Shown in pieces: positions 5,496 through 28,815 of a DNA stretch of 45,803 nt. The notes under the pieces were generated by a model. The model saw nothing but the letters and a program-made list of their open reading frames with translations. It made no database searches and was not told the DNA's origin. Source of the DNA: a virus. The stretch covers positions 1-45,803 of the IMG/VR virus record IMGVR_UViG_3300012920_005529, one strand, 5' to 3'. Made by a program: the position numbers and the translations under genes. The first letter of the stretch is position 1; each line of letters opens with the position of its first letter.

Positions 5496-5565
5496 ATTAG
5501 TCGTGGTGACTGATCGTCGTAAAGACGTAAAACCAAATGATGTAAACTTTATAATGGAGAAATTT

Positions 5566-7158: not shown

Positions 7159-7180
7159 AGGATTTCCTTTTTTTATATGA

Positions 7181-11579: not shown

Positions 11580-12000
11580 CCGTTATTGTTAACTCCACTT
11601 TCTCGCCATCGCTGACGTAAGTTATTCCTGTACCTTCAATATTGAAGGATCCCTCACTACTTGGATTTTCTCCAAACATACTCTCTACTAATTGTCTTGA
11701 GAGTGTAGAATAAATTCTGCTCTCAACATTACGAATGAATTTCGCGAGTGTAGTATTCTCAGCGTCTCTTTCAAGTTGTTTTTGTATATCTTCCAGTTCT
11801 TGTTTCAGTGCTTCTTTACGAGAAGTTTCTTGGTTTTCAATCGTCAAATAATGAGACGATTGATTTATACCGCTAAACGATGGAGATTTAAACTTATGTT
11901 CTTTTGGTGTACCGTGTGCAGGCACTGCTATTAGCAATAGTGCCATCACAAAAACAAACATCAATCCATATACGTTAGCGTTTCTTTGGTTTCTTTTCAT
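11524..12000 (-). CDS. csgF: CsgF-family curli assembly protein
   Basis: This 158-residue protein has a signal peptide (hydrophobic run about residues 12-29). Directly after it comes KFKSPSFSG, the CsgF N-terminal motif that inserts into the CsgG channel. A helical neck (about 50-100) and a beta-rich end (ITYVSDGEKVELTITDENG) match CsgF architecture. It lies just upstream of csgG in the same operon, which supports both calls. It overlaps the small membrane protein upstream by 26 bases. Confidence 0.88.
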   Translation of the reverse strand: MKRNQRNANVYGLMFVFVMALLLIAVPAHGTPKEHKFKSPSFSGINQSSHYLTIENQETSRKEALKQELEDIQKQLERDAENTTLAKFIRNVESRIYSTLSRQLVESMFGENPSSEGSFNIEGTGITYVSDGEKVELTITDENGKVTVITIPIGDFGI

Positions 12001-13253: not shown

Positions 13254-13969
13254 TTACACTGATCACAACTTATTTTGAAGACCCATACAGATTAGATTTC
13301 TTTATACAAAATAATTATAATGAAGATTTCTTTTCAGAATTAATTATTGTTGATGATGGATCTCCCAATTCACCTGCAATTGATATTGTAAAAGATTACC
13401 CAGACAAAAATATAAGTTTGTTTAGAGTTAAAAAAGACATAGGTTTTAATTCTCATGGTTGTCGTAATCTTGCAATGAAGCATGTAGAAACAGAGTGGGC
13501 ATGGTTAACAGATGTAGACCGAGAAGGCATTGATGAATGTGCTGAGATTGTTAGTAGATATATTGAATCTCACAGACACGATGAATATTATAACTTCTTA
13601 CTCGGTAAGAAAAAAGAAGTAACACACAATGATTATTGTATAAGAACAGAGGACTTTTGGAAGTCTGGTGGATATGACGAAGAATATGTAAATATGCATA
13701 TGGGCGATAGAATCTTTATTGAACGATTAAATTCATACTTGACACCCACAACAATACCATATATAATAAATCCGACTCGAAAACAACGTGTGTGTAAGTA
13801 TAGAGATATCGGGATTACTGTATATCCTGATGATAATACTATGCTTCATCCGAGAATTGATAGAGAAAAACTAAAACAAATAGATGATACAGTAAAACAT
13901 AGAAACAAAAATCCTGAAACATGGATTCGTGATAACATTATTAATTTTGATTGGGAACAAATTATATGA
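13250..13969 (+). CDS. GT-A (family 2-like) glycosyltransferase
   Basis: This 239-residue protein has the GT-A start: ITTYFEDPYRL, then IIVDDGSP (about residues 32-39). An LTDVDREG segment (about 84-91) supplies the DxD metal and nucleotide-sugar motif. It has no membrane segment, unlike long polymer synthases, so it probably transfers a single sugar in the cytoplasm. The overlap with both neighbours (ATGA) places it in one operon with the methyltransferase and a radical SAM enzyme. Confidence 0.75.
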   Translation: MITLITTYFEDPYRLDFFIQNNYNEDFFSELIIVDDGSPNSPAIDIVKDYPDKNISLFRVKKDIGFNSHGCRNLAMKHVETEWAWLTDVDREGIDECAEIVSRYIESHRHDEYYNFLLGKKKEVTHNDYCIRTEDFWKSGGYDEEYVNMHMGDRIFIERLNSYLTPTTIPYIINPTRKQRVCKYRDIGITVYPDDNTMLHPRIDREKLKQIDDTVKHRNKNPETWIRDNIINFDWEQII

Positions 13970-15363
13970 GTGATTTAGATAAGGCACTTCTATTGCGCGA
14001 TGCAATGGACGATGTTTTCAGTCCTACTTTTTGTTTCGCTAAATGGTATCATACAACTATTTACTTACAGACAGGTATGACACATTCCTGTTATCATCCA
14101 GCACCACATAAAATACCATTAGAAGGATTGGCTGAAAATCCTTCAATGTTACACAACACACCACACAAGAAAGATGAACGTAAGCAGATGCTAAACGGTG
14201 AAAAGTGTGTTGGATGTAATTACTGTTGGAATGTTGAAGCTATGGGTGAGGATTATATTTCTGACCGTGTGATCAGAAGTGCATCTCTTTACAAGAAAGA
14301 AAGAATGGATAATATCATTGCTTCTGATTGGGATATGGATGTAAATCCAGATTATATCGAACTTGCCTTCAGTAATGAATGTAATTTTAAATGTGGTTAT
14401 TGTCATCCTAATTCTTCGTCTCGATTTATGTCAGAGATTAAGAAATTTGGACCATATGATATGGTGAAGAATCATAGACTCGATATTGATTGGTTCAAAG
14501 CATACGAAGAAGGTCAAAACCCTTATGTAGAAGCGTGGTGGAGATGGTATCCAGAAGTTGTTAAGACTCTGAGTATTCTTAGACTTACTGGTGGTGAACC
14601 ACTTATGCATAAATCAACTTGGAGATTATTTGAAGAATTACATAGAAACCCTCAACCGCATTTAGAATTAAACATAAATACCAATCTTGGTGTTAAAGAG
14701 AAGTTCGTTGACAACCTTGTAGGTAATGTAAATCTGATCAGAGAGAAAAAGGGAGTCAAAAGTTTTGCTCTGTATACAAGTATTGATTGTTGGAATAAAA
14801 GAGCAGAATATATTAGAACTGGATTGAAACTTGATTTGTGGGAGAGAAACTTCCACACTTATGCGATGGGTACGAAAACACCAATCAATCTTATGATAAC
14901 CTTCAATGCATTGACTGTATCTACATTCAAAACATTGTTGGAGAAAATTTTAGAATGGCGTAAACAATACGAGGGAATCATTGTTCCAGATAGCACATCA
15001 AAGAGAACAATTCGATTCGATACACCATACCTCAAAGAACCACTTCATTATGATATGAATATTTTACCGAAAGATGAATTCATGCCGTATATGAAAGAGA
15101 GTTTAGATTTCATCGAGCAAAATATAGACGACTCCGATCCAACTATGTTTCAGACTGTTGAGTTTGAGAAGTTCAGACGTGTTCACGATTATATGAAAAC
15201 AAGTGATTACGGTGAAGAAAAATTAAACGAAGGTCGTAAAGATTTTTACAATTGGTTCAATGAACACGACCGCAGAAGAAACACTAATTTTTTGGAGACA
15301 TTTCCCGAATATGAAAATTTTTATAACAGGTGTCGCAGGATTTCTGGGCAGTCACCTAGCTGA
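13966..15363 (+). CDS. Radical SAM enzyme with N-terminal Cys-rich region
   Basis: The 465 residues start at ATG 13966, which overlaps the upstream stop. The motif CNFKCGYC (about residues 139-146) binds the [4Fe-4S] cluster, and LTGGEP lies about 70 residues later as in radical SAM barrels. Before the barrel is a Cys/His-rich region (HSCYHP, then CVGCNYCW) that may hold an auxiliary cluster, the reverse of the usual C-terminal SPASM order. The substrate is unknown. The sugar-enzyme neighbours suggest a nucleotide sugar or glycan, but a peptide is possible. Confidence 0.88.
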   Translation: MSDLDKALLLRDAMDDVFSPTFCFAKWYHTTIYLQTGMTHSCYHPAPHKIPLEGLAENPSMLHNTPHKKDERKQMLNGEKCVGCNYCWNVEAMGEDYISDRVIRSASLYKKERMDNIIASDWDMDVNPDYIELAFSNECNFKCGYCHPNSSSRFMSEIKKFGPYDMVKNHRLDIDWFKAYEEGQNPYVEAWWRWYPEVVKTLSILRLTGGEPLMHKSTWRLFEELHRNPQPHLELNINTNLGVKEKFVDNLVGNVNLIREKKGVKSFALYTSIDCWNKRAEYIRTGLKLDLWERNFHTYAMGTKTPINLMITFNALTVSTFKTLLEKILEWRKQYEGIIVPDSTSKRTIRFDTPYLKEPLHYDMNILPKDEFMPYMKESLDFIEQNIDDSDPTMFQTVEFEKFRRVHDYMKTSDYGEEKLNEGRKDFYNWFNEHDRRRNTNFLETFPEYENFYNRCRRISGQSPS

Positions 15364-16327
15364 TAAGTTTATTCAACTCGGACATGATGTTGTTGGAGTT
15401 GATAATCTTGTTGGTGGGTTTAAACAAAATCTACACCGCGACGTAAAATTTTATCAAGCTGATTGTTGCGATCAAGTCTTAATGAAAGACATGATGGCTC
15501 ATGAAGAAATAGATGTTGTTGTGCATTGTGCAGCAACCGCACACGAAGGGTTTTCTGTTTTTAGTCCATCATTTATTACTCGAAACATTTATGAAGCAAG
15601 TGTATCTGTGATCAGTGCAAGTATTGCAAACAATGTAAAGCGTTTTGTTTTTTGTAGCAGTATGGCACGTTATGGTAAACAGACAGGAACACTCAATCAA
15701 TTTAAAGAAGACATGAAACCGATGCCAATAGATCCTTATGGTATTGCAAAGGTTGCAGCAGAGGATACATTGAAGTGCCTCGCTGATGTTCATGGAATGG
15801 AATATAATATTGCAGTTCCACATAACATCATTGGCGAACGTCAAAAGTTTGACGATCCATATCGTAATGTTGTAAGTATTATGGCGAACAGAAACTTACA
15901 AGACAAACCTGCAATCATTTATGGAGACGGTGAACAGAAGCGTTGTTTTTCTTATGTGGGTGATTGTGTATCTTGTCTAGTCAAAATGGCATTAGATAAA
16001 GAAATAGTAAATGAAGTAATTAATATTGGACCAGACGAAGAAACTATTACAATAAATGATGTTGCAGAATTAGTAGCAAAAACTTGTAAGTATAAAGGTG
16101 AACCTATATATAAAGATGAAAGACCATTGGAAGTAAAGTTTGCAACTTGTAGTAGTTCAAAAGCAAGACGTTTGTTAGATTATAAAACTTCTACAACACT
16201 ACAGGAAGCTGTCAAGAAAACTGTTGATTATATTATAGAAGTTGGACCAAAACCATTTGATTATGCATATAGATTAGAAATTGAAACTGATAAAACTCCA
16301 ACTACGTGGAAAGACAGAGAGATGTAA
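15311..16327 (+). CDS. NAD-dependent nucleotide-sugar epimerase/dehydratase
   Basis: The 338 residues start at ATG 15311 (MKIFITGVAGFLGSHL). The extended-SDR glycine motif G-x2-G-x2-G is at residues 7-13, the catalytic Ser region at CSSMARYG, and Y-x3-K at DPYGIAKVAAE. This is a UDP-glucose epimerase/dehydratase-type extended SDR; the product sugar cannot be told. The start lies 53 bases inside the radical SAM gene in another frame, an unusually long overlap. A further upstream ATG (15260) would make it longer and is less likely. Confidence 0.88.
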   Translation: MKIFITGVAGFLGSHLADKFIQLGHDVVGVDNLVGGFKQNLHRDVKFYQADCCDQVLMKDMMAHEEIDVVVHCAATAHEGFSVFSPSFITRNIYEASVSVISASIANNVKRFVFCSSMARYGKQTGTLNQFKEDMKPMPIDPYGIAKVAAEDTLKCLADVHGMEYNIAVPHNIIGERQKFDDPYRNVVSIMANRNLQDKPAIIYGDGEQKRCFSYVGDCVSCLVKMALDKEIVNEVINIGPDEETITINDVAELVAKTCKYKGEPIYKDERPLEVKFATCSSSKARRLLDYKTSTTLQEAVKKTVDYIIEVGPKPFDYAYRLEIETDKTPTTWKDREM

Positions 16328-17515
16328 ATGAATTTGATGTTTGAAGATTTCAAAGAACGAAGAAATCTAATTAATTGTGATGATATGACCAAAGGCGGTC
16401 AACCTAGATTTCAAGTAAGTCCTATGATTAACACAATGTGTAGGATGAAATTTCAGTCTGATTTGATAGAGCATACTGATGATAATTATTTAATCGCTAC
16501 TGGTGTGAACGGCTCGATTGCTAATTGGGCAAAAGGATCGTTTCTCTCTGAGAAATCTATGTTTGATTATCTTTCTGACAACTATCTAAAGAAACTCAGA
16601 GATGGAACTGCTATGTTTCTTGCCGACTTTTCTTTAGAAGGTTATCATGTAGACTGGCTCTTCGATTGGTTTCATGCAGAAGCGAAACGGTTACATATCC
16701 CTGACCAATGTATAGTTTATGTAACAGGTAATATGTTAATTGCTGAGCAGTATGAAGAGTATGCAGATATGAGAGGAATAGAAGATAGAATTAAATGTAT
16801 TCCCTATGCAGGATTTGAAGAGTTTATATCTATTCAAAGATTAAAAACAAAACAATACACAATTGATGATGATATTCTATTCAAAGAGCAAAATAAAACA
16901 TGGACATTTAATTGCCCACAAAAACGAGCAAGAAACCACAGAGTAGAATTCTTTGATAAGATGGCAAAAAATGGTTTAGTATCAAAAGGATTATGTAGTT
17001 TTCCTGAACGCGGTATTTACATATTGGGCGAAGAACACGACAAAGATACTGGTTATTATATTGGAAGAGTCCATCCAGAATATTGCCTGAAGACTTTTGT
17101 AACTGTTGTAAGCGAACCACAGTATTATGAAGAAGAATTATCAACATTTACTAGCGAAAAAGTTTTTAAACCTATTGCATTAGGTCATCCATTTATTGTA
17201 CTTGGTGGACAGCGTTCATTGGAAGTATTAAAAAGCAGAGGTTATGAAACCTTTTCAGATTATTGGGATGAATCTTATGATACACTTCCTGACAATCAAC
17301 GTATGGATGCGATTATTGAATTGTTGAAATATATAGACTCTATAGAAAACAAAGTTGAATGGTATAAATCATTAAGACCAGTATTAGAACATAATCTTGA
17401 TCAGTTTAAAGAAAACTGTTCAAAAGAGGATATTGCAATTACAGAATTAAAGAACTATTATCAGGAGTATTTTTACGACCACAAAATACACCAGTTGGAG
17501 TATTTTTATGATTAA
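16328..17515 (+). CDS. Putative GT-B-like glycosyltransferase
   Basis: This 395-residue protein has a C-terminal segment, TSEKVFKPIALGHPFIVLGG followed by a GYETF turn. It matches the (S/T)EK-(I/V)-(F/W)-KP-x-x-x-G-x-PF signature I know from phage and fucosyltransferase-like GT-B proteins, where it contacts the nucleotide sugar. The N-terminal half is less conserved. It directly follows the epimerase, a likely sugar donor pathway, and overlaps the Rieske gene by 8 bases. Confidence 0.65.
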   Translation: MNLMFEDFKERRNLINCDDMTKGGQPRFQVSPMINTMCRMKFQSDLIEHTDDNYLIATGVNGSIANWAKGSFLSEKSMFDYLSDNYLKKLRDGTAMFLADFSLEGYHVDWLFDWFHAEAKRLHIPDQCIVYVTGNMLIAEQYEEYADMRGIEDRIKCIPYAGFEEFISIQRLKTKQYTIDDDILFKEQNKTWTFNCPQKRARNHRVEFFDKMAKNGLVSKGLCSFPERGIYILGEEHDKDTGYYIGRVHPEYCLKTFVTVVSEPQYYEEELSTFTSEKVFKPIALGHPFIVLGGQRSLEVLKSRGYETFSDYWDESYDTLPDNQRMDAIIELLKYIDSIENKVEWYKSLRPVLEHNLDQFKENCSKEDIAITELKNYYQEYFYDHKIHQLEYFYD

Positions 17516-18743
17516 ACAAGAACAAATCAGATTAATGAAAGGGTTAATTAAACATTTGGACTCAGGTACAAATGTTGATGCAGGTGGTATAATTAAAAAT
17601 CCAGTTGATACTTATACTTCTGTGGATAGATTTAATTTAGAATGGGAAAAGTTTTTTCAAGATTATCCACAAATAATTGGCATGTCTGGTGATTTACCTG
17701 AACCAAATAGTTTTGTTACAATAAATGATTTCAATGCACCTATTATTGCAACACGAGATTCTCAAGGAAAATTTAGAGCATTTTATAATGTTTGTACTCA
17801 TAGAGGTTCTGTGATAGAAGAAGAACAAAGTGGTGTGAAGGCAAAATTCACTTGTCCTTTTCATGCATGGACATTTAATAATGAAGGAGATCTAATTGGA
17901 TATCCTAGAAAAGAACATTTCGGTAAAATTGATAAAGAATGTTACAAACTAACTGAATTGCCATGTTTAGAAAAGCACGGTTTCTTATGGGTTCATCCAA
18001 ACCCAAAAGGAGAAATTAATATAGATGAGTTATTTGGTGATGAATTAAATGAAGAGTTTACCTCTTGGGGTAATTTTGATAAAATGGTTAGGTCTCATGG
18101 AGATGAATACATTACAGATATGAATTGGAAATTAGCAATCGATACGTTTGGCGAAACTTATCATTTTCAATTCATACATAAAGATTCTCTCTTTGAAAAT
18201 GTATATGGCAATCTACAAATGTTTGATACCTTTAAGAGAAATGCTAGATCTATTATTTGTAAAAGAGATATGGATGAAATTAGAAAACTTCCTGAAGAAG
18301 AATGGAGTATTCTTCATGCAGCTTTACCTATTTACTATTTGTTTCCTAATATTATTTTCATACCAACAGTCGAGGGAGCATTCTTTATTAAGGTTTATCC
18401 TTTAGAAAACTCTCCACATAAATGTGTTTCAAAGATTTCATTTTATTTTCACCCAGAAGTTATAGAGATTGCAGACAAGATGGGAGTTTGGAACACAAAT
18501 AAAAAGTTAGGTTCTAAATTTAGTATTCCAGAAGATCAGAATCCGCTACAGGCAGTTGCTACTGTTTTTGGTGAAGTTATTAGAGATGAAGATTTTGAAG
18601 TTGCTGAAAAAGCATACAAAGGAATTAGATCTGGTAATATTAAGAATTTAACTTTTGGAAGAAACGAACAACCACTTCATTTTTATCACAACACATACAG
18701 AGAAGTTTTAGGTTTGGAAAAACTTCCACTGTTAGAGGCATAA
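17508..18743 (+). CDS. Rieske non-heme iron oxygenase, alpha-subunit type
   Basis: The 411 residues include a Rieske [2Fe-2S] site at Cys96-x-His98 (CTHRG) and Cys116-x2-His119 (CPFHAW). A catalytic mononuclear iron site shows His219 and His224 within DTFGETYHFQFIH, preceded by a conserved NWK. The C-terminal HFYHNTYREVLG resembles the tail of ring-hydroxylating or N-demethylating oxygenases. Such enzymes need an electron-donor reductase; none is visible here, so a host ferredoxin system would be used. The substrate is unknown: a sugar, choline-like compound or aromatic is possible. Confidence 0.9.
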   Translation: MIKQEQIRLMKGLIKHLDSGTNVDAGGIIKNPVDTYTSVDRFNLEWEKFFQDYPQIIGMSGDLPEPNSFVTINDFNAPIIATRDSQGKFRAFYNVCTHRGSVIEEEQSGVKAKFTCPFHAWTFNNEGDLIGYPRKEHFGKIDKECYKLTELPCLEKHGFLWVHPNPKGEINIDELFGDELNEEFTSWGNFDKMVRSHGDEYITDMNWKLAIDTFGETYHFQFIHKDSLFENVYGNLQMFDTFKRNARSIICKRDMDEIRKLPEEEWSILHAALPIYYLFPNIIFIPTVEGAFFIKVYPLENSPHKCVSKISFYFHPEVIEIADKMGVWNTNKKLGSKFSIPEDQNPLQAVATVFGEVIRDEDFEVAEKAYKGIRSGNIKNLTFGRNEQPLHFYHNTYREVLGLEKLPLLEA

Positions 18744-18744
18744 T

Positions 18745-19569
18745 ATGAAGTATCTTATAGGTACTGGATGCAGTTTTACAAGTGGACAAGGTTCTTGTAG
18801 TGCCGAATTCCACAGCGAACATGGTGATAGAATATACCACCACAATACTGGCATACCAAATATTGATGATGAAGAAAAGAGAAACTCTTGGGTTAGACTT
18901 GTTGCAGAAGAGATAGGTTATGAACCTATTAATCTTGGGGAGAAAGGAAGAGGAAACAGAGCAGCTGTAAAGGAACTTTATCTCAATAATATAGATCCTC
19001 GTGCAGAAAAGATTGTAGTATTCCAAATGAGTGGTATGGCTCGTTTTGATTGGGTGCACATAGACGAAAACATTAAATGGGGTAATTTCTTTCCAATTTT
19101 TCCAAACCTTGAAGGTAATGAGTTTTGGCAAGGGTATGCAAAACACGGAAGTAGCGACCAACAACAAGCAATCGATTGTTTACTTAATATTGCAGAGATT
19201 CAAAACTGGTGTAAATTAAACAATGCAAAACTTTTAATGTTCTCAGGATTTGATACACAGATAGATCCTGATATACTTTCCACGTTGATACATCCAATTA
19301 AAAGTCACTTTACAAACATTGTTGATTGGGGTTACTTTTGGAAGCCACTAGGTAATCGTACTATAATGGAACTTCTTGTACGAGAATCAGAGCCTGATTT
19401 ATCTGAAGAAGAGTTACAACCTATTATAACTTTCGACTACTTTAACAGATATAAAAAGCAAGGATTTGCAAAAGGTCTGATCAGTCCATGTGGTCACCCT
19501 TCTCATTTCGGTCATAAACGGATAGCAGATTTGGTTACTGAAGAAATTATGAGGAGAAGGTATGTCTAA
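18745..19569 (+). CDS. SGNH-hydrolase-like protein
   Basis: This 274-residue protein begins IGTGCSFTSGQG (residues 5-16), a block-I motif with Ser in GCSFT. Then comes SWVRLVAEEIGYE and NLGEKGRGN, where an Asn/Gly block is expected. HPSHFGHKRIAD near the end supplies the late His. The organisation is that of phage SGNH proteins often found near glycan genes. It starts one base after the Rieske stop and overlaps the second SGNH gene by 8 bases. O-acyl removal or transfer on a glycan is inferred. Confidence 0.7.
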   Translation: MKYLIGTGCSFTSGQGSCSAEFHSEHGDRIYHHNTGIPNIDDEEKRNSWVRLVAEEIGYEPINLGEKGRGNRAAVKELYLNNIDPRAEKIVVFQMSGMARFDWVHIDENIKWGNFFPIFPNLEGNEFWQGYAKHGSSDQQQAIDCLLNIAEIQNWCKLNNAKLLMFSGFDTQIDPDILSTLIHPIKSHFTNIVDWGYFWKPLGNRTIMELLVRESEPDLSEEELQPIITFDYFNRYKKQGFAKGLISPCGHPSHFGHKRIADLVTEEIMRRRYV

Positions 19570-20320
19570 GTTATTACAAGGTAATACACTCTCACACGAT
19601 AATGCCAGTCCTCTTTGGCTATCATCTGACTCTCCAGAAGAGTTCAAGAAAAATAGTATAGAAAGTGGTTTCAGAGAAAGATGGAAAAATATAAAAATAA
19701 CCTATGATTTAAACGAAGAAGGTTACAGAGCAAAACAATGGTCGGAAATTGACTGGTCTGAATCTATTGCTATGATTGGTGATTCCCATACGTTAGGTCT
19801 TGGAATTCCTTATGGGCATACTGTAACCGAACAACTCAGCAAGAAACTTTCAAGGAAAGTAATTAATCTTGGTGTGGGCGGTTGTTCGAATCTTTTTATG
19901 CTTTATAATGCTGTGAATGTTTTGGAGCATTTTAATCCATGGGGTATGATAATACAATGGTCTGCTGCAGAAAGGTTTCCTCGTTTTTCAAATCCAAATC
20001 CAGGAAATTCTGGCGTTCAACATTTTGGAAGTTGGAATCTTGATAACATTTATTACAAAAGACTTTGGGTGAAAGAAGATAATTTCTTATTTCATGACAG
20101 GTTTATAAAACAAACTGCAAGACAACTAAATATTAATAGGTTTTTGGATTATGTTCCAGAAGCGTGGAAAAATGAATATGACACAGATAACACTCTCGTT
20201 TGGAGAGGGGATTCAGGAGAAAATTATGCTAGAGACAATATACACCCAGACGGTGTCATTTATAAAAAATGGACTGACATCATTCATGGGGATATTATCA
20301 AAAATGGTTGGTTGGATTAA
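19562..20320 (+). CDS. SGNH/GDSL hydrolase
   Basis: This 252-residue protein has a clear GDSHTLGLG (block I, about residues 74-82), NLGVGGCSN (block II/III Gly and Asn) and a D-x2-H block V (DNIHPDG near the C-terminus). All catalytic elements of the SGNH fold are therefore present. It is the second SGNH gene in tandem with the one at 18745, with low similarity between them. Cytoplasmic, with no signal peptide. The likely chemistry is ester hydrolysis or transfer; the substrate is not known. Confidence 0.78.
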   Translation: MSKLLQGNTLSHDNASPLWLSSDSPEEFKKNSIESGFRERWKNIKITYDLNEEGYRAKQWSEIDWSESIAMIGDSHTLGLGIPYGHTVTEQLSKKLSRKVINLGVGGCSNLFMLYNAVNVLEHFNPWGMIIQWSAAERFPRFSNPNPGNSGVQHFGSWNLDNIYYKRLWVKEDNFLFHDRFIKQTARQLNINRFLDYVPEAWKNEYDTDNTLVWRGDSGENYARDNIHPDGVIYKKWTDIIHGDIIKNGWLD

Positions 20321-20408
20321 AACTAAAATACAGGAATGGAAAGCAAAACGTGCTTTTAAAAAACGGTTGAAAGAATTACGTGAAAAAGATCCATTTATTT
20401 ATGATTGA
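20304..20408 (+). CDS. Basic 34-residue peptide
   Basis: A short ORF (MVGWIKTKIQEWKAKRAFKK then RLKELREKDPFIYD) forms one amphipathic basic helix with a fixed DPFIYD ending. An in-frame ATG at 20286 would add six residues. I remember similar basic mini-proteins in front of DUF1289 genes in marine phages. It overlaps the SGNH gene by 17 bases, and its stop overlaps the next start (TTGA), so translational coupling is likely. Confidence 0.55.
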   Translation: MVGWIKTKIQEWKAKRAFKKRLKELREKDPFIYD

Positions 20409-20563
20409 CTTTGAAGACTCCTTGTATTAAACTTTGTAAGCTAAACAAAGAAAATATTTGTATTGGCTGTTTCAGGTCAATAGAAGAAATTACAAGTTGG
20501 AGAAACCTTTCTTTGGAAGAGCAGAAGCAAGTAATAGAAGTTGCGAAGAAAAGAAGATTATGA
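20405..20563 (+). CDS. DUF1289-type four-cysteine protein
   Basis: This 52-residue protein uses TTG 20405 as its start, overlapping the previous stop (TTGA); TTG 20411 is an alternative. Cys7, Cys11, Cys19 and Cys22 follow the DUF1289 pattern (PCIKLC, CIGCFRSIEEI, then a W and an ending rich in Lys and Arg). DUF1289 proteins are common in proteobacteria and probably bind a metal or Fe-S centre; their role is unknown. Its stop overlaps the AOX start (ATGA). It was missed by ATG-based or length-based gene finding. Confidence 0.8.
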   Translation: MTLKTPCIKLCKLNKENICIGCFRSIEEITSWRNLSLEEQKQVIEVAKKRRL

Positions 20564-21129
20564 TAAGAGATAAAATAGCAATGGGAATGACAAAGTTCTT
20601 CCGTTTTATAGCGGACACTTTCTTTGCCAAAAGATATGGACACAGAGCAGTTGTATTGGAAACTGTTGCAGGTGTTCCAGGAATGGTTGCAGGTATGTGG
20701 CTACATTTTAAAAGTCTACGAAGAATGAAAACTGGTTATGGTCCAGATATCAGAGAGATGTTAGCAGAAGCAGAAAATGAAAGAATGCACCTTATGTTCT
20801 TTATTGAAATTGCTAAACCAAATTTCTTAGAAAGAATTCTAGTATTACTTGCACAAATATCATTTATGTTCTATTACTTTATACTCTATATTATAAGTTA
20901 TAGACTAGCACATAAAATGATAGCGTACTTTGAAGAGGAAGCAGTTAGGAGTTATACAGATTATTTGGCACTTGTTGAAAGTGGTCAAGTAGAAAATGTT
21001 CCTGCTCCTCAACTAGCAATAGACTATTATAAGATGGACAAAAATGCAAAACTGAGTGATTTAATTAAGAAAGTGAGAGCAGACGAACAGCATCACAGTA
21101 AAGTAAATCACAGGTATGCAGATGCTTAA
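20560..21129 (+). CDS. aox: Alternative oxidase (ubiquinol oxidase, diiron)
   Basis: The 189 residues start at ATG 20560, which overlaps the DUF1289 stop. The diiron ligands of the AOX family are all present: Glu34 (LETVA), Glu74 and His77 (NERMH), one of Glu125-127 (EEEAVRSY), and Glu176 and His179 (RADEQHH). The hydrophobic membrane-attachment face lies at about residues 91-115. AOX oxidises ubiquinol and reduces oxygen to water without pumping protons, at the inner-membrane face. Cyanophages carry the related plastoquinol oxidase PTOX. Here it sits in a glycan block with no photosynthesis gene, so a respiratory role is inferred. Confidence 0.93.
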   Translation: MIRDKIAMGMTKFFRFIADTFFAKRYGHRAVVLETVAGVPGMVAGMWLHFKSLRRMKTGYGPDIREMLAEAENERMHLMFFIEIAKPNFLERILVLLAQISFMFYYFILYIISYRLAHKMIAYFEEEAVRSYTDYLALVESGQVENVPAPQLAIDYYKMDKNAKLSDLIKKVRADEQHHSKVNHRYADA

Positions 21130-22558
21130 ATGGGGTATTGCAGCTGGTACTCACGATGGCTCATTGGCTGTCGTAGAAGATAATAATATTCTTTTTGCAA
21201 GTCATAGCGAAAGATACAGCAGAAAGAAAAACGACCCACACCTAAATTCAGATTTAATTCACAAAGCGTTAGAATACGGACAGCCAGATATAATTTACTG
21301 GTATGAAAATCCGTATAAAAAAGCACTTAGAAAATTTGTCGCTGATCAGCCGAATAAATGGATGAACCCTCGAAAATATCTAAGTGAGTATGGTATACAA
21401 GGAGATATAAGATATGGAAACCATCACAAAAGTCATGCAGCAGCTGGGTTTGCGACTTCTAAATTTGATTCTGCTGCCGTTCTTGTTATTGATGCTATTG
21501 GTGAGTTTACCACTACTTCTATTGGAATATATGAGACTGATGGAAGCAATAAAATTATCGGCAAGAAACTTTATGCGAGGAGATATCCCCAATCACTCGG
21601 ACTCTTCTACTCAGCAATAACAGATCGCGTTCAATTAAAAGCAAACGAAGATGAATACATCCTTATGGGTATGTCAGCTTATGGAAAGCCAACCTATGCA
21701 GAGGAAATGCGAAAGATGTTACAATACAACTACAACTTTCATAATGGTTGTAGAAAATTCTTTCCACAGGCTGATCATTTCGATCTTGCAGCATCTGCAC
21801 AAAAAGTTTATGAAGAAGAATTTATCAAACTTTTAAGTTATACAGAAACAATTACCAAATCAGATAACCTAGTTCTCATGGGCGGTTGTGCATTAAATTG
21901 TCTAGCAAACAGACACGTTCATAAGTTTTTTAAAAACGTCTGGGTGATGCCAAATCCTGGAGATGCAGGAAGTTCTATTGGTGCGATTGCAGCTGGTGAA
22001 ATGCAAATGTTAAACTGGAACACACCATATCTTGGAGAAGAAATAAAAGGTAAGTATCCAATCAAACATATTATGGAAGAATTATTGGAAAACAATATTG
22101 TAGGTGTTGCAAATGGTAAAGCTGAGTTTGGTCCAAGAGCGTTAGGTAATAGAAGTCTATTTGCCAATCCTACAGGTCAAGAAATGAAAGACCTTGTAAA
22201 CAAAATAAAACAACGGCAAGAGTTTAGACCTTTTGCACCTGTTATTTTAGAAGAGGATGTTCACAAACACTTCTACGTTGAAAAGGGATTTTCAAGTCCT
22301 TATATGCAATATATAGTGAAGGCAAAAGACCGTGAAATGTATCCAGCTATCGTACATAAGGATGGAACAAGCAGGGTACAGACTGTAACAAGAAAACAGC
22401 ATTCAGGTCTTTATAGATTGCTAAAACAATGGAAGAAACACACAGGAATTCCTATGTTACTAAATACTTCTCTGAACATAAAAGGCGAACCAATGGTAAA
22501 TAGCCGAAAAGACGCGGATTTATTTGAAAAAAGGTATGGCGTAAAAGTCGTTTCGTAA
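21122..22558 (+). CDS. NodU/TobZ-type carbamoyltransferase
   Basis: The 478 residues start from ATG 21122 (ATG 21116 adds two). The N-terminal Kae1-like domain has GTHDGSLAVVED, the HHKSH iron and carbamoyl-adenylate site and GGCALNCLANRH. The C-terminal YrdC-like part has EFGPRALGNRSL, RPFAPVILEED and LNTSLNIKGEP. These enzymes move a carbamoyl group from carbamoyl phosphate onto a hydroxyl of a sugar or antibiotic. With the epimerase, glycosyltransferases and SGNH genes upstream, carbamoylation of a glycan is the most natural reading. Overlaps the AOX gene by 8 bases. Confidence 0.92.
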   Translation: MLKWGIAAGTHDGSLAVVEDNNILFASHSERYSRKKNDPHLNSDLIHKALEYGQPDIIYWYENPYKKALRKFVADQPNKWMNPRKYLSEYGIQGDIRYGNHHKSHAAAGFATSKFDSAAVLVIDAIGEFTTTSIGIYETDGSNKIIGKKLYARRYPQSLGLFYSAITDRVQLKANEDEYILMGMSAYGKPTYAEEMRKMLQYNYNFHNGCRKFFPQADHFDLAASAQKVYEEEFIKLLSYTETITKSDNLVLMGGCALNCLANRHVHKFFKNVWVMPNPGDAGSSIGAIAAGEMQMLNWNTPYLGEEIKGKYPIKHIMEELLENNIVGVANGKAEFGPRALGNRSLFANPTGQEMKDLVNKIKQRQEFRPFAPVILEEDVHKHFYVEKGFSSPYMQYIVKAKDREMYPAIVHKDGTSRVQTVTRKQHSGLYRLLKQWKKHTGIPMLLNTSLNIKGEPMVNSRKDADLFEKRYGVKVVS

Positions 22559-22568
22559 TAAATAAAAT

Positions 22569-22871
22569 ATGTCTGCTAAGATTATACAGTTCCCAAAGAA
22601 GTATAGGGAGACAACTCCTCTTGGAGTAGCTATCAAACTTTATTCTGAAGAAGAGGTAGAAATGGTTCTATTTTGCCTTAACATCTTCGGCGATTCTGAC
22701 AACCCAATCACACAATCAGATTTAAGATCTGCCGATCCACAATACACACTTGATTGTATGAAAAAAGCACACAACAGCTTTTTGCTATCACACGATGCAA
22801 AAGCTATAATTTCTTACATTATGAAAAATGTGACAGACGTGACACCCAAATCACAGGGGGCTAGATTATAA
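22569..22871 (+). CDS. Hypothetical protein with IIQFP start
   Basis: This 100-residue mostly helical soluble protein starts SAKIIQFPKKYRE, an N-terminal pattern I have seen on small T4-like phage proteins of unknown role. It lies between the carbamoyltransferase and phoH and is probably in the same transcript. AATAAATA at 22557-22564 upstream is a near-match to the late promoter. No catalytic motif is visible. Confidence 0.65.
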   Translation: MSAKIIQFPKKYRETTPLGVAIKLYSEEEVEMVLFCLNIFGDSDNPITQSDLRSADPQYTLDCMKKAHNSFLLSHDAKAIISYIMKNVTDVTPKSQGARL

Positions 22872-22901
22872 CGATTAACCCACTAACCATAAGGTCTATA
22901 A

Positions 22902-23660
22902 ATGTCGAGACGCAAACCCAGCCTTCAACTAATTCAAGACGCAAGTCAACAACAATTCAAAAAAGGAAACAATAGACTCCAACCAAAAATATCTGACTTA
23001 GATATATTCGACCCACTAACACCAACCCAGAAAGCATTTTATGATGCTTATCCAACCTCTTCCTGCATGTTATTACACGGTTCAGCTGGAACAGGTAAAA
23101 CTTTTATCGCACTATACAAAGCATTAGAAGAAGTTCTAGACAAAGGCACATCTTACAGTAAGGTTGTCGTGTGTAGATCTGCAGTCGCATCGAGAGACAT
23201 CGGTCACCTTCCTGGAAATGAAGTAGAAAAAACCGAAGTATATATGAGACCATACATTGATATGTGTCAAGAATTATTCCCTGATAAACAACAAGCGTTT
23301 GAACGCTTACAAGAATCAAAACGTATTGATTGGATGATCACATCTTTTGTAAGAGGTATTACACTTGATGATGCAATCATTATTGTAGATGAATGTCAGA
23401 ATATGAATGATATGGAATTGAATTCAATTATGACTCGTATTGGACACAGAAGTAAGGTCATCTTTGCAGGTGATTTCAAACAATCAGATTTATATGCAAA
23501 ACGAAACGATATGTCAGGTCTCCAGAAGTTTATGGTGATTGCTGACTTGATGCCTTCATTCAAGGTATTTGAATTTACACCTGAAGACATCGTTAGAAGT
23601 GATATTGTAAAAGAATATATTCTCGCCAGAGAACAATACGAGGCACAATACACAACATAA
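22902..23660 (+). CDS. phoH: PhoH-family ATPase
   Basis: This 252-residue protein has Walker A GSAGTGKT (about residues 60-67) and Walker B IIIVDECQN (about 162-170), then RIGHRSKVIFAGDFKQSD, the PhoH motif with a glutamine and arginine finger region. PhoH is very common in marine phages; biochemical work on bacterial relatives suggests an RNA helicase/ATPase. The link to phosphate starvation is by name only. It has no obvious promoter and probably reads through from the upstream block. Confidence 0.93.
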   Translation: MSRRKPSLQLIQDASQQQFKKGNNRLQPKISDLDIFDPLTPTQKAFYDAYPTSSCMLLHGSAGTGKTFIALYKALEEVLDKGTSYSKVVVCRSAVASRDIGHLPGNEVEKTEVYMRPYIDMCQELFPDKQQAFERLQESKRIDWMITSFVRGITLDDAIIIVDECQNMNDMELNSIMTRIGHRSKVIFAGDFKQSDLYAKRNDMSGLQKFMVIADLMPSFKVFEFTPEDIVRSDIVKEYILAREQYEAQYTT

Positions 23661-23665
23661 AACGC

Positions 23666-23693
23666 TTGACTTTTTACTCTATTGTGGTATAAT
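23666..23693 (+). promoter_or_regulatory. Early sigma70-like promoter
   Basis: TTGACT at 23666-23671 and a consensus TATAAT at 23688-23693 have a 16-base spacer. GGAG at 23709-23712 precedes the ATG at 23718. Confidence 0.8.
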
Positions 23694-23717
23694 AGTAAGA
23701 TTGCCCATGGAGTACAA

Positions 23718-24383
23718 ATGTTCAAACATGTAAAAGAACTTGCAGATTTTGCAAACAGTAAGACCTCGCCAGACGGTAGTAGACGTTACTATACTGCTTC
23801 TGGCGAGGCATACCCATCCGTCACCACAGTACTCAGCGTCCTAACACGTCAAGCCATTATGGAATGGAGACAACGTGTTGGAAGTGAGGAAGCCAATAAG
23901 GTAAGTAGAAAAGCATCGACTCGTGGTACTAAGATACACTTATTGTGTGAAGATATACTAAACAATAAAGAGATTGATATGTCAAATATGTCTTTACTTG
24001 ATAAGGAAATGTTCAACAAATTTAGACCACTTTTAGATCGTATAGATAATATTCATGGTCAAGAGGTTGCACTATACAGCGACCATTTACGCTTGGCTGG
24101 TCGTGTTGATTGTATTGCCGAGTATAATGGAAAGCTGTCAATCATTGATTTTAAAACTGCAGCTAAACCAAAACGTAAAGAATGGATTGATAATTACTTT
24201 GCACAAGCTGCAGCATATGCTATAATGTATGAAGAAAGAACAGATATTCCGATTGATCAGAGCGTAATTATGATTGCTGTCGAAGGAGACGAACCACAGG
24301 TGTTTACAGAAAAACGTGATAACTATGTAGAGTTACTACTCAATGCAAGAGATATCTGGGAAAGCGAGAATGTCTCAGAGTAG
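23718..24383 (+). CDS. PD-(D/E)XK exonuclease (RecB/Cas4-like)
   Basis: The 221 residues start at ATG 23718, supported by GGAG at 23709-23712; an upstream in-frame start would lie inside the promoter. The nuclease core is AGRVDCIAEYNGKLSIIDFK, with the Asp and the D-F-K pair, followed by YFAQAAAYA, the RecB-family Q-x3-Y motif. It has a basic, helical N-terminal region. Likely roles are DNA degradation, recombination or end processing. The early promoter suggests host-genome breakdown or DNA replication. Confidence 0.87.
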   Translation: MFKHVKELADFANSKTSPDGSRRYYTASGEAYPSVTTVLSVLTRQAIMEWRQRVGSEEANKVSRKASTRGTKIHLLCEDILNNKEIDMSNMSLLDKEMFNKFRPLLDRIDNIHGQEVALYSDHLRLAGRVDCIAEYNGKLSIIDFKTAAKPKRKEWIDNYFAQAAAYAIMYEERTDIPIDQSVIMIAVEGDEPQVFTEKRDNYVELLLNARDIWESENVSE

Positions 24384-25179
24384 TTTAAGAACACTTCCAA
24401 ATTTTACATGGGAAGACTGGCTAAAGTTTAAAGATCCATCCGAGAAATGGGGTCTTGCAGATTTTGCAGTTAAAGAAGTTTCTTTTGATTGTGATGTTGA
24501 GAAATTAATCACCTCATTTGAGTATTGGTTTGCTAATTATGCATGCAAACCAAAATCATTTTATTCAGACAAATTTGTTGGGTGTGATACAAAAGACTTT
24601 CCAGAACATTTTGAAATCCCACTAAAACTGGCTTGGTTGACTCGAGTCTATTTTACTGTGGGTTACAAATACCCAATGGGTCTTTTCTGGTTTCCAAGAG
24701 AAGCAAATGAAAGATGGATAATTCATCCTGGAGGTGGCAGACAAAAAGTATTGAAGATGTTTTGTTCTGAAGATGATAGAATAGAGTTCCTTACATTCAA
24801 CACTGGTGGTAAACGAATTTCATTTAAAGAAATATTTACGAAAAAAGATCGGTTCGATACATGGGCGAGAGATATCTTACAAGCAGATTATATGCTCAAC
24901 TGGGTCGCTGAGAAAGGCACAATAATACCTCATTGTTTGTTTAACTCTAGTCAGAACAATGAGCATTGTAGAGAATCTTGCGAAAGGTTAGTTGAAATTC
25001 TAAATAAATATAACATAAGTGTCAATGGAGAGATAGTATCTTCTCTAGGAAGTACACCATTGAACATTATAACAGATGGAAGCATCGAATCTAAACTTCG
25101 AGCCTATATGCTTCTGCCATTTTTTGAGATATATGATGAGTCAATACTCACAAAATACGAAATCGAATATATTACCTGA
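24370..25179 (+). CDS. Hypothetical protein upstream of a radical SAM gene
   Basis: The 269 residues start at ATG 24370, 14 bases before the exonuclease stop; the in-frame start at 24343 is longer. I recognise no family. The central part is rich in aromatic residues (GYKYPMGLFWFPREANERW and IHPGGGRQKV). It overlaps the radical SAM gene by 47 bases, and the pair is probably functionally linked. The aromatic middle could bind a ligand or substrate. Confidence 0.6.
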   Translation: MSQSSLRTLPNFTWEDWLKFKDPSEKWGLADFAVKEVSFDCDVEKLITSFEYWFANYACKPKSFYSDKFVGCDTKDFPEHFEIPLKLAWLTRVYFTVGYKYPMGLFWFPREANERWIIHPGGGRQKVLKMFCSEDDRIEFLTFNTGGKRISFKEIFTKKDRFDTWARDILQADYMLNWVAEKGTIIPHCLFNSSQNNEHCRESCERLVEILNKYNISVNGEIVSSLGSTPLNIITDGSIESKLRAYMLLPFFEIYDESILTKYEIEYIT

Positions 25180-26125
25180 TATGGGTAGAGCAGTCATCGA
25201 AGTATTCGGTGGTTGTAATTTTAAATGTGATATGTGCCCACAATCAGTTGGTCGAGGGAAAGATTGGACTCGTAAAATGCCACTCGACCTTTTTGAGAAT
25301 ATCCTAAAACAACTTAACGGAAAACCAATTATCAACCTCGAAGGTTCAGGTGAACCGACGATGGCTAAAGATTTATACAAGTATGTTCAGCTTTGTACTG
25401 ATTATGGGTTTGATAGTTTCATTTATACCAATGGAAGTAAACTTACAGGAGATCTCCTGAAGCAATGCATACTGGCTGGACTTAAATTTATTCGTTACAG
25501 TTGTATTGGTTATGATAATGATACATACAGTCATTGGATGAAAAACAAAAAGGGACACAGCTTTGATGACTTGATGGGACGTATTCAAGAAGCAAAAGAA
25601 TATATTTCAGAGGTTGGAAGCGATTGTAAAATTTCTACCTATCATCTAATCTTAGACAACGAACAATTAAAAGAACAAACAAAACTCTACCAAGATAATG
25701 TTGTAAATAAAATGGGGATTACTGGCTACATTTGGAAGATGCACAATTGGAGTGGTAATTACGATCCAGCTTATGGAAGAGAAGCTGAAACGAAAAGAAC
25801 TTGTGGCAGACCATTTAGTAATGAGATTACAATTCGTTCTGGCGGTAATGATGGAAAGCGTGGTGGTGTTACTCCTTGTTGTCAAACTATGGGGCAACCT
25901 AATGAAGCGAAATCAGTATTAGGTCATGCAGACGAGATGAGTCTTGTAGATATCTGGTATGGTGAAGAATATGAAAAACTCCGCGAAGGTCATAGAACAG
26001 GAGATTATCCAGACTATTGTAAGTCTTGCGACTTCTTGTACGATAATCCTGAAGTCCTTGTTTGGAGTAATGATAGTGAAGCTAAAGTCAATCATATGTT
26101 AGGGACAGATTTTGATTTGCGTTGA
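25133..26125 (+). CDS. Radical SAM/SPASM-like enzyme
   Basis: The 330 residues start at ATG 25133 (or 25136). The cluster motif is CNFKCDMC (about residues 28-35). LEGSGEP lies about 45 residues later and an IYTNGSKL strand follows. Toward the C-terminus is a Cys set (CGRP, PCCQ, then CKSC) that would hold a second Fe-S centre as in SPASM proteins. Peptide or sugar modification is possible. It differs in architecture from the enzyme at 13966, so the two are not recent duplicates. It overlaps the gene after it by 14 bases. Confidence 0.85.
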   Translation: MMSQYSQNTKSNILPDMGRAVIEVFGGCNFKCDMCPQSVGRGKDWTRKMPLDLFENILKQLNGKPIINLEGSGEPTMAKDLYKYVQLCTDYGFDSFIYTNGSKLTGDLLKQCILAGLKFIRYSCIGYDNDTYSHWMKNKKGHSFDDLMGRIQEAKEYISEVGSDCKISTYHLILDNEQLKEQTKLYQDNVVNKMGITGYIWKMHNWSGNYDPAYGREAETKRTCGRPFSNEITIRSGGNDGKRGGVTPCCQTMGQPNEAKSVLGHADEMSLVDIWYGEEYEKLREGHRTGDYPDYCKSCDFLYDNPEVLVWSNDSEAKVNHMLGTDFDLR

Positions 26126-26870
26126 ATGGAAGGCTCGTCCAGGATATGGCGATATGACTTCTCCTTGCTCTTACATTAATAATCTTGCAGAGAAAACTGG
26201 CGAAAATGTTTTGCTTCTTTGGTGTTTCCAAAACGAGAAAGGAGTCAAGGATATCTATGAAAAAGAGGACAGCGAAGAATTAGAGTTTAGACTTCAAACT
26301 ATTTTTGATATTATGAAAACTCAGGATGTTCACCTCGAAATAAAATACGGACACAATCTACCTTACAAACACAGTAACTTACCATACCATAAATTTCATA
26401 ACTATCGTCTTTGTGATCAGAAACATAGATGGAAGGGCGGTGGCGGTTATGTAACATTCGTCACAACAGAGAACAATAAGGTACAATTTAAAGATTATGA
26501 AAAGGCACATCATAAGGTATGGAAAGACCCAACTAATAATAACTGGAAACCTTTATATCACCAGTTTGACAACGTGAAGTTTGTAGATTATGATACACCA
26601 ATATTGGAAGCAATTAAAACATTACAAGAAACAGAACTAATGATTAGTTATGACGGTTCTGCTTCTTCCCTCGCGAGAATCCTTGGAACGCCTAGTTATA
26701 TCCTATCTGGTCGTCCAGAGCACACTCTATCGGATTTTCCAAACGCATTGATCAGTAAAAAACTTGACTTTTTAGCAAAAGAAATGTATGATATACAAGA
26801 GATTTGCCTAGAAAAGATAGATGAATCTGAAGAAGGTCTAAAAGACTTCTTGACTAATTATACAATTTAA
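26112..26870 (+). CDS. Putative glycosyltransferase (GT9-like)
   Basis: The 252 residues start at TTG 26112, since no in-frame ATG lies upstream; ATG 26154 would lose the first motif. The start (ARPGYGDMTSPCSYINNL) resembles the Gly-rich N-terminal turn of ADP-heptose transferases. The late segment ISYDGSASSLARILGTPSYILSG resembles their donor-binding region; the match is at pattern level only. It ends just before the tmRNA late promoter. It probably acts with the two upstream genes. Confidence 0.5.
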   Translation: MICVEWKARPGYGDMTSPCSYINNLAEKTGENVLLLWCFQNEKGVKDIYEKEDSEELEFRLQTIFDIMKTQDVHLEIKYGHNLPYKHSNLPYHKFHNYRLCDQKHRWKGGGGYVTFVTTENNKVQFKDYEKAHHKVWKDPTNNNWKPLYHQFDNVKFVDYDTPILEAIKTLQETELMISYDGSASSLARILGTPSYILSGRPEHTLSDFPNALISKKLDFLAKEMYDIQEICLEKIDESEEGLKDFLTNYTI

Positions 26871-26872
26871 GG

Positions 26873-26880
26873 TATAAATA
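26873..26880 (+). promoter_or_regulatory. Late promoter TATAAATA before the tmRNA
   Basis: Exact consensus followed by AGGAG. The predicted start, a few bases downstream, begins at or near the acceptor piece of the tmRNA. Confidence 0.75.
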
Positions 26881-26881
26881 A

Positions 26882-26945
26882 GGAGTTCGTTGAAGCGAAT
26901 CAAAAGGTATGCAGGACGTGGGTGCAATTCCCACCACCTCCACCA
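26882..26945 (+). ncRNA. ssrA: tmRNA acceptor piece (circularly permuted ssrA)
   Basis: The T arm GTGGG-TGCAATT-CCCAC (26918-26934) is preceded by GCAGGAC. The 3' acceptor strand CACCTCC (26935-26941) is followed by ACCA (26942-26945). CACCTCC pairs with GGGGGTG at 26966-26972 (six Watson-Crick pairs and one G-U). AATCAA at 26898-26903 can pair with TTGATT at 26991-26996, as the joining P2 helix. The 5' limit is approximate. Acceptor before coding piece is the order of a two-piece (permuted) tmRNA. Confidence 0.87.
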
Positions 26946-26965
26946 CCATTAAAAGTTTTTTTCAT
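26946..26965 (+). other. tmRNA intervening segment
   Basis: This 20-base AT-rich spacer, containing a run of seven T, lies between the acceptor CCA and the coding-piece 5' G. It would be removed by processing (RNase P and 3' trimming) to give two RNAs. Confidence 0.7.
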
Positions 26966-27166
26966 GGGGGTGAATTAGGATCGACTGGTATTGATTAGAT
27001 AAGTGGAGAACAGGTGTGCAAGCAACCTCTAACTATCCGTATGGATTTGGTAGGAATCGTAAGAACTAAATCAAACGCAAACGATAACTTTGCATTTGAG
27101 GATTACGCACTAGCTGCATAATCACTCGGGGTCAGAGGACGCCTAGCAACAGAAGTCCTCATTTTT
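26966..27166 (+). ncRNA. ssrA: tmRNA coding piece with ANDNFAFEDYALAA tag
   Basis: It begins GGGGGTGAATTAGGATCGACTGG (split here: GGGGGTGAATTAGG, then ATCGACTGG), which carries the tmRNA 5' acceptor strand and the D-like GATCGAC motif. The tag reading frame runs from GCA at 27077 to TAA at 27119-27121 and encodes ANDNFAFEDYALAA. The ALAA end is the ClpXP-type degron, and A-N-D is the usual start. GAGGAC/GTCCTC (27135-27160) followed by ATTTTT closes the unit and may terminate it. Confidence 0.88.
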
Positions 27167-27183: not shown

Positions 27184-27696
27184 ATGAATTTTCTAGACAC
27201 ATTCGGTGCGATACTTATCGCACTGGCTACAAACCCTATCGCTGATATTGAATCGCATACAGGTATGAATGTCGAACCGCAAGTTGCTTGTTTGGCACAA
27301 AATATATACCATGAGGCTCGAAACGAGTCTACTGCTGGAATGTTGGCTGTTGCAGATGTAACTATGAACCGAGTGAAAGCCGAAGAATTTCCAAATACAG
27401 TTTGTGAAGTAGTTTATGAAGCACCACATTATGTATCGAAAAAAGACGGAAAGCGATATCCTTACAGACATCGCTGTCAATTCTCTTGGTATTGCGACGG
27501 CAAACCAGATACTGTTACCAATACGAAAAAGTATAGAGCCATTTATATGTTATCACTTTATGCAATGAAGTCAAAAATGGATCTAACAGATGGTGCACTT
27601 TTTTATCATGCAGATTATGTGAACCCAACTTGGGCAGAACGAATGAAAATTACAGCTAAGATTGATACACATATATTTTATACACCAATGGATTAA
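27184..27696 (+). CDS. SleB-like cell wall hydrolase (likely endolysin)
   Basis: This 170-residue protein shows the Hydrolase_2 (SleB-type) core: CLAQNIYHEARNES with the catalytic Glu, GMLAVADVTMNRV, CQFSWYCDG and an ALFYHADYVNPTW segment. The first 25 residues are hydrophobic and may be a signal-anchor, which would allow export without a holin. It cuts peptidoglycan at muramic acid. It follows the tmRNA by 17 bases, with GGAG before the ATG. It probably shares the late tmRNA transcript or reads through from it. Confidence 0.85.
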   Translation: MNFLDTFGAILIALATNPIADIESHTGMNVEPQVACLAQNIYHEARNESTAGMLAVADVTMNRVKAEEFPNTVCEVVYEAPHYVSKKDGKRYPYRHRCQFSWYCDGKPDTVTNTKKYRAIYMLSLYAMKSKMDLTDGALFYHADYVNPTWAERMKITAKIDTHIFYTPMD

Positions 27697-27698
27697 GA

Positions 27699-28538
27699 AT
27701 GCATATTGTTGTTACTGGTGGTTGTGGTTTTATCGGAAGCCATTTAGTTGAGTTATTTGCAGAAGCAAGTTACGAAGTCACCGTTATAGATGATCAAAGA
27801 AATGGTAAGTTTGTTACACACAGACCGAATGTTCATTATATGTTCGAAGATGTTTGTAGTGCTATTATACCACCATGCGACGCTATTGTTCATCTAGCCA
27901 ATACGCCTAGAATTAGGATGTCGTTTGATAATCCTGCAGAGTCTATTTTAAATAATATAAACCCAACAGTGGTTGTCTGCGAGTATGCTTTGAGGTATAA
28001 TTGTCCATTATATTTTGCAACATCATCAAGCAATATTTTTAGCGATGCATACTCAAATCCTTACACCTTTGGAAAAGCCATGTGTGAGGAAACATTGAAT
28101 TTTTATCAGAGAAGTTTTAATTTGCAATATCACTTAATGTACTTTTACAACGTATATGGTCCAAGAGAAGCAGACTACGGAGAACACAGTACTGTGATCA
28201 GAGCATTTAAAAACCAAGTTGAACGAGGTGAGAGTCTCAGGATATTTGGCACTGGTAATAAAACTAGAGATTTTACATGGGTTGAAGACGTTGCCATGGG
28301 AGTTGCAAATCTCGTTAGTGCGGAAAAGAAAATTAAAGAAGCGCATTTCGGATCTAACAATCCATATTCAATTCAACAAATAGCTGATGCATTTGATCAT
28401 CCTATTATATACGAATTTGATAGGAAAGGAGAAGCCGAACATACGCGATGCGATCAACCCTATATAAAAAGGAGTCAAGATGCCATTGAATATATTAGAG
28501 AATGGAAACGGAGATACGATGCCAAAAGTTGTAGTTGA
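27699..28538 (+). CDS. NAD-dependent epimerase/dehydratase (second copy)
   Basis: The 279 residues include TGGCGFIGSHL (residues 6-16), the catalytic ATSSSNIFSD segment and Y-x3-K in NPYTFGKAMCEE. TRDFTWVEDVA is the usual conserved region of UDP-sugar epimerases. It resembles the epimerase at 15311 in fold, but the two sequences differ clearly. It sits between the lysin and gp33, apart from the main glycan block. It overlaps gp33 by 59 bases if the latter starts at 28480. Confidence 0.87.
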   Translation: MHIVVTGGCGFIGSHLVELFAEASYEVTVIDDQRNGKFVTHRPNVHYMFEDVCSAIIPPCDAIVHLANTPRIRMSFDNPAESILNNINPTVVVCEYALRYNCPLYFATSSSNIFSDAYSNPYTFGKAMCEETLNFYQRSFNLQYHLMYFYNVYGPREADYGEHSTVIRAFKNQVERGESLRIFGTGNKTRDFTWVEDVAMGVANLVSAEKKIKEAHFGSNNPYSIQQIADAFDHPIIYEFDRKGEAEHTRCDQPYIKRSQDAIEYIREWKRRYDAKSCS

Positions 28539-28815
28539 TAATGATATGAATACAGACCCATCAGAGGTTACTGATGAATATCTCATCACCAAACAATTTA
28601 AAAGTTCGTCTGATTTCTCACAACACATAGAAAAAGAAGCTGTGAGAACTAAGTCAGGTTATATTGATACTATTGTTGCATTCTGTGAAAACAATAATAT
28701 GGAAATAGAATCTGTTAAAAAATTGCTTACTGCGAACTTAAAAGAAAAGATTGCAGTTGAAGCAGCTGACCTTAATCTTCTCAAAGGAGAGAAGTCTGGG
28801 AAGTTGCCTTTGTAA
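28480..28815 (+). CDS. 33: Late transcription coactivator gp33
   Basis: The 111 residues compare with 112 in T4. The segment SGYIDTIVAFCENNNMEIES-VKKLLTANLKEKI (about residues 56-89) followed by EAADLNLL matches the helical core of marine T4-like gp33. gp33 bridges the sliding clamp and RNA polymerase carrying gp55, allowing transcription from TATAAATA late promoters, which are abundant here. GGAG stands before both ATG 28480 and ATG 28519; 28480 gives the T4-like length. It overlaps gp59 by one base. Confidence 0.8.
   Translation: MPLNILENGNGDTMPKVVVDNDMNTDPSEVTDEYLITKQFKSSSDFSQHIEKEAVRTKSGYIDTIVAFCENNNMEIESVKKLLTANLKEKIAVEAADLNLLKGEKSGKLPL

Follow-up and report, generated by a model that had tools for sequence, protein, structure and literature searches.

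A permuted tmRNA gene in a Melnitz-like phage

The window, by which we mean the whole stretch of DNA analysed, is a 45.8-kb IMG/VR virus fragment with genes for gp33, gp59, gp32, PhoH, an exonuclease, baseplate proteins and an endolysin, as well as regions with CHASE2-cyclase, FecR and CsgF/CsgG similarity (6241-12000, - strand; in Melnitz these lie on the tmRNA strand). Most of the window's genes are common to Methylophilales phage Melnitz and a core is common to Pelagibacter phage HTVC008M; the window is from a Melnitz-like, T4-type marine phage. Metabolic cargo is located at 13951-26125, where genes for a carbamoyltransferase, a nucleotide-sugar epimerase and two radical SAM proteins are present; a second epimerase is at 27699-28538. 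In the window, Melnitz and HTVC008M alike, a tmRNA gene is positioned between the exonuclease and gp33 genes, and the gp33 neighbourhood recurs in many viral tmRNA loci.

The tmRNA gene and its flanking features are all on the + strand. A promoter of fused type (26850-26880), comprising TTGACT (26850-26855), a 17-bp spacer and TATAAATA (26873-26880), is followed by the acceptor piece (26885-26945), the 5' end of which is inferred to be at about 26885. This piece is made up of the 3' strand of P2, the T arm (GUGGG/CCCAC, 26918-26934), the acceptor 3' strand CACCUCC (26935-26941), the discriminator A (26942) and CCA (26943-26945), with the mature 3' end placed at the end of the CCA. An intervening sequence of 20 bases (26946-26965), read between the CCA and GGGGGUG and presumably removed by processing, separates it from the coding piece (26966-27163). 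The coding piece opens with GGGGGUG at 26966 and contains the acceptor 5' strand, GATCGAC, the P2 5' strand, the tag frame and a 3' hairpin with a conserved GCAACAGAA. The tag reading frame (27077-27121), ANDNFAFEDYALAA followed by the stop TAA, is intact and has a degradation-type C-terminus; it is alpha-type and ends ALAA, and is identical to the tag of a close relative (L041). At dereplicated viral loci, 66 of the 73 tags read end in LAA. Downstream are a cell wall hydrolase gene (endolysin-like, 27184-27696; Pfam Hydrolase_2, E 4e-24; PHROG endolysin, E 3e-22) that is possibly co-transcribed with the tmRNA, and the gene for a gp33-like late-transcription coactivator (28480-28815; phrog_254, E 4e-20, with synteny to Melnitz and HTVC008M).

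Family assignment and pairing between the two pieces

Two Rfam families match the interval over their full lengths: permuted tmRNA (RF04321) at 26885-27121 (model positions 1-213, 114.1 bits, E 1.2e-21), and alpha_tmRNA (RF01849) at 26846-27163 (model positions 1-355, 98 bits, E 1.2e-25), the latter setting the right-hand limit of the coding piece. Both scores exceed the gathering scores of 47 and 50 bits respectively. The first-pass annotation had read the interval as a circularly permuted phage ssrA, with an acceptor piece upstream of a coding piece, a 20-base gap and acceptor strands pairing across it, and had proposed the Rfam covariance models as a check; each of these elements is present where it had been placed, and the family matches confirm that the interval is a complete, phage-encoded, two-piece alpha-type tmRNA gene, circularly permuted. 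By Rfam it is the only permuted tmRNA in the 45.8-kb window. ARAGORN missed it and is blind to 28 of 76 dereplicated viral relatives; surveys based on this program undercount phage permuted tmRNAs.

The acceptor strands form seven of seven pairs, the third being G-U (26968/26939). We examined pairing further in an alignment of 33 viral relatives carrying the late box, with the structure taken from the Rfam alignment. Paired bases occupy 96.3% of the cells, double changes occur in ten pairs, and covariation scores 0.425, compared with 0.127 in shuffled alignments and at most 0.05 when the partners are slid. Compensatory changes back the T stem, one acceptor pair and P2, and indicate that the tmRNA structure is under selection. 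In P2, A-U is swapped for U-A (17 and 15 sequences) and G-C for A-U, and one acceptor pair exchanges G-C for A-U. Column pair 62/116, free of the search pattern on its acceptor side, covaries. The search pattern itself dictated a number of the acceptor and GATCGAC columns, whose invariance is therefore not evidence. When each locus's acceptor segment was matched with its own coding piece and with those of others, it paired better with its own, and none of 2000 permutations did as well. In the window itself P2 pairs weakly (-2.4 kcal/mol, proximal). Folding the whole interval as a single strand gives nothing out of the ordinary (z -1.45), a result that we do not use as evidence. The 5' part of the acceptor piece is a local hairpin in the alpha model versus a distal P2 helix in the permuted model, and the MAFFT alignment is unclean there.

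Permuted tmRNAs in phages are a known class, and the window adds a relative to a known, little-noticed group. The first-pass annotation had found such a gene unfamiliar, but permuted tmRNAs were described in 2022 in Melnitz and in dozens of phages, most of them aquatic (PMC9004378): that study counts 53 two-piece tmRNA structures in phages, of which 50 belong to phages of marine or aquatic samples, and reports a permuted tmRNA in 17 of 47 related contigs. By pattern scan we found at least 119 permuted viral tmRNAs in IMG/VR, the sampled loci not being a census. Others are present in roseophages V10, DSS3P8, MD18 and DSS3_MAL1, in Rhodobacter phages RcXuper, RcSimone-Hastad and RcRudolph, and in a Mesorhizobium phage; several roseophage copies are unannotated, as is that of the cultured SAR11 phage HTVC008M (KC465899, about 145161-145370; L130:2080-2289). 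In V10, DSS3_MAL1, MD18 and DSS3P8 (L132-L135) a GOLLD RNA lies directly upstream of the permuted tmRNA, in a tRNA cluster. No DNA similarity of the window tmRNA to phage isolates was found. Plasmids gave no match. The tag pattern matched three sites in genome contigs; the one inspected (L122) falls within protein-coding DNA of a Clostridia genome, whose class, when surveyed, yielded no true alpha_tmRNA.

The closest described system is that of Melnitz (MZ577097; PMC9004378), which like the window has an alpha-type permuted gene on the exonuclease side followed by gp33, gp59 and gp32, and a fused TTGAC-N17-TATAAATA promoter on the tmRNA. In Melnitz the spacer is longer, a glutamine riboswitch follows the tmRNA directly, and the tag is another one (ANDNYVPVDYALAA), whereas the window has endolysin and epimerase genes between the tmRNA and gp33. 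The relative L041 has a glutamine riboswitch (5432-5534) downstream of gp32; Rfam reports none in the window. HTVC008M shares the permuted alpha-type tmRNA and an equal neighbourhood, but has no fused promoter and carries a short tag of another type. The alphaproteobacterial ssrA (RF01849, Caulobacter type) resembles the window gene in gene order, structure, ANDN-type tag and the G-U acceptor pair, a likeness drawn from the Rfam family; the window gene differs in lying in a phage genome and in having a phage-type late box.

A promoter with host-type and phage late elements

The window contains 11 copies of TATAAATA, where 4.0 are expected; the copy at 26873 is identical to the eight-base box of T4 late promoters (PMC1524935). 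T4-type late boxes need no -35 element, whereas this one simultaneously occupies the -10 position of TTGACT-N17-TATAAATA, a box expected only 0.01 times in the window. Compared with a sigma70 reference of TTGACA and TATAAT separated by 16-18 bp, five of six bases agree in the -35 and five of six in the -10 (TATAAA, without the final T), with 17-bp spacing; a stricter sigma70 scan does not list the promoter, and with this suboptimal -10 its sigma70 activity may be weak. Because a gp33-like gene is present, T4-type late transcription can be expected in the window phage; gp55 is not seen in the 45.8-kb fragment and is annotated in Melnitz. In Melnitz, plain TATAAATA boxes are located ahead of gp18, gp22, gp23, gp48 and baseplate genes, and the sequence is thus a true late box among these phages.

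Among 76 dereplicated viral tmRNA loci, 44 carry TATAAATA ahead of the tmRNA at a distance that hardly varies. In 31 of these 44 TTGAC is present at exactly 17 bp, the spacers being divergent. Elsewhere in the same DNA this fused box is rare: the -35 accompanies only two of 100 other TATAAATA sites (p 7e-19). In about nine further loci, read by eye, a TTTAC-like -35 and TATAAT stand 17 bp apart, and TATAAATA either overlaps the TATAAT or lies a few bases further along. Melnitz (141.5 kb) has the fused box twice, once on the tmRNA, and its TATAAT-type boxes are separate. In HTVC008M and in a whole group of relatives the tmRNA lacks its own promoter, which makes the fused box dispensable.

The authors of the Melnitz study call their tmRNA promoter early (PMC9004378), and the near-consensus TTGACA/T at the optimal 17 bp is in keeping with a sigma70 promoter in which TATAAATA is simply a variant -10, perhaps inherited with a host ssrA gene; our comparison covers viral loci only and leaves room for such inheritance. 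We nevertheless consider an early promoter of this simple kind unlikely. Away from the tmRNA, sigma70-type boxes in the same DNA take the form TTGACW-N17-TATAAT (22, versus two of the fused form; Fisher p 2e-11), the full eight-base late box, including the eighth base A, is retained in 31 of 31 fused loci, and the tandem TATAAT and TATAAATA arrangement occurs at the other loci described above.

We also scanned IMG/VR for TTGACA-N17-TATAAATA alone and obtained at least 121 sites, from samples that were not dereplicated and include many short contigs. Among the matches listed, a tmRNA is downstream of 32 of 121 sites, Hsp20 is within 150 bases of 14 (19 by a looser count), and an ORF beginning MAHFAEL is downstream of six, compared with none of 122 for all three in a control with 13-bp spacing (p 2e-11 for tmRNA, 4e-5 for Hsp20). 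Rfam confirmed 12 tmRNAs that the initial regular expression did not pick up. Over half of the listed fused sites stand before other genes or before none that is clear, and we rejected the proposition that only tmRNA genes carry the fused box.

The first-pass annotation had assigned the gene to a late promoter. The T4-type late box it saw is present, but the TTGACT 17 bp upstream was overlooked, and it seems distinctly improbable that just the gp55 late complex uses TATAAATA and that TTGACT is irrelevant. Such a promoter would agree with the exact T4 consensus and its fixed last A, with the imperfect fit of TATAAA as a -10, and with the other late boxes in the window and Melnitz, which precede structural genes. 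It leaves unexplained both the retention of TTGAC at exactly 17 bp on the tmRNA genes and its near absence from other late boxes, as well as the lack of tmRNA behind the wrongly spaced control. Because the near-consensus -35 at this spacing is conserved on viral tmRNA genes, expression confined to late infection is not the best reading. The late reading and the early reading of the Melnitz authors each see half of the promoter.

What seems to be new, on the basis of these sequence comparisons, is the fusion of a host-type (early) and a phage late promoter, in an arrangement retained by many related viruses. We found no description of a combined host/phage sigma-factor promoter in the open-access literature searched; the fused box shows how recognition by the two kinds of sigma factor might be combined in one promoter.

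Proposed ribosome rescue during infection and other genes behind the fused box

We think it likely that the locus is a complete ssrA gene with a dual early/late promoter that supplies ribosome rescue throughout infection. The promoter would probably be read early by the host sigma70 polymerase and later by the gp55/gp33/gp45 complex. T4 late boxes span -13 to -6 (PMC1524935), and transcription under the sigma70 and the late reading would begin at nearly the same position, 5 to 7 bases past the box. A single, almost leaderless transcript starting at about 26886 would then contain the acceptor piece, the 20-base spacer and the coding piece, and because this predicted start coincides with the beginning of the acceptor piece there would be little leader to trim. 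Host RNase P and 3' tRNA-processing enzymes would presumably cut the transcript into two RNAs, which the acceptor stem and P2 would keep joined, as the covariation suggests. By analogy with the family, host AlaRS would charge the tmRNA by way of its G-U acceptor pair, the SmpB and EF-Tu of the host would bring it to ribosomes that have stalled, and the tag would direct nascent chains to host proteases.

Neither the window nor any of 30 related records, which include four complete phage genomes, yielded an SmpB, and we therefore propose standard trans-translation with host SmpB. Rescue of ribosomes by the phage itself, as the first-pass annotation suggested, would still require host SmpB. A further suggestion, that the host tag is replaced, finds no support, the tag being of normal alpha-type. 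It is very improbable that the gene is a decaying passenger copy, or a decoy that inhibits host trans-translation in the manner of the tag-less tmRNA of phage DS6A, a form that inhibits endogenous tmRNA in E. coli (PMC11915505), since the coding piece is complete with an open tag ending ALAA in the window and most relatives, compensatory changes show that the structure is under selection, and the gene has its own conserved promoter.

During T4 infection host SsrA remains stable while host tRNAs are degraded, and the authors of that study speculate that SsrA is needed throughout infection (PMC9697503). The promoter layout suggests a reason for a lytic phage to carry a tmRNA, namely continuous ribosome rescue during the takeover of host transcription. 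The fused box also links tmRNA to Hsp20. More tentatively, T4-like marine phages could perhaps use TTGACW-N17-TATAAATA to keep a few genes, above all those for proteostasis (tmRNA, Hsp20), transcribed throughout infection; many of the fused loci are short contigs whose T4-like nature is presumed. Among six T4-like isolates examined, Hsp20 has a fused box in S-CRM01 only, and in Melnitz it has a plain late box. Hsp20 genes with a short 5' hairpin leader follow fused TTGACA-N17-TATAAATA in L159, L162, L172, L150, L201 and others, and the MAHFAEL ORF, which is 154-170 aa in length, is found behind the fused box in L140, L142, L177, L194, L212 and L247.
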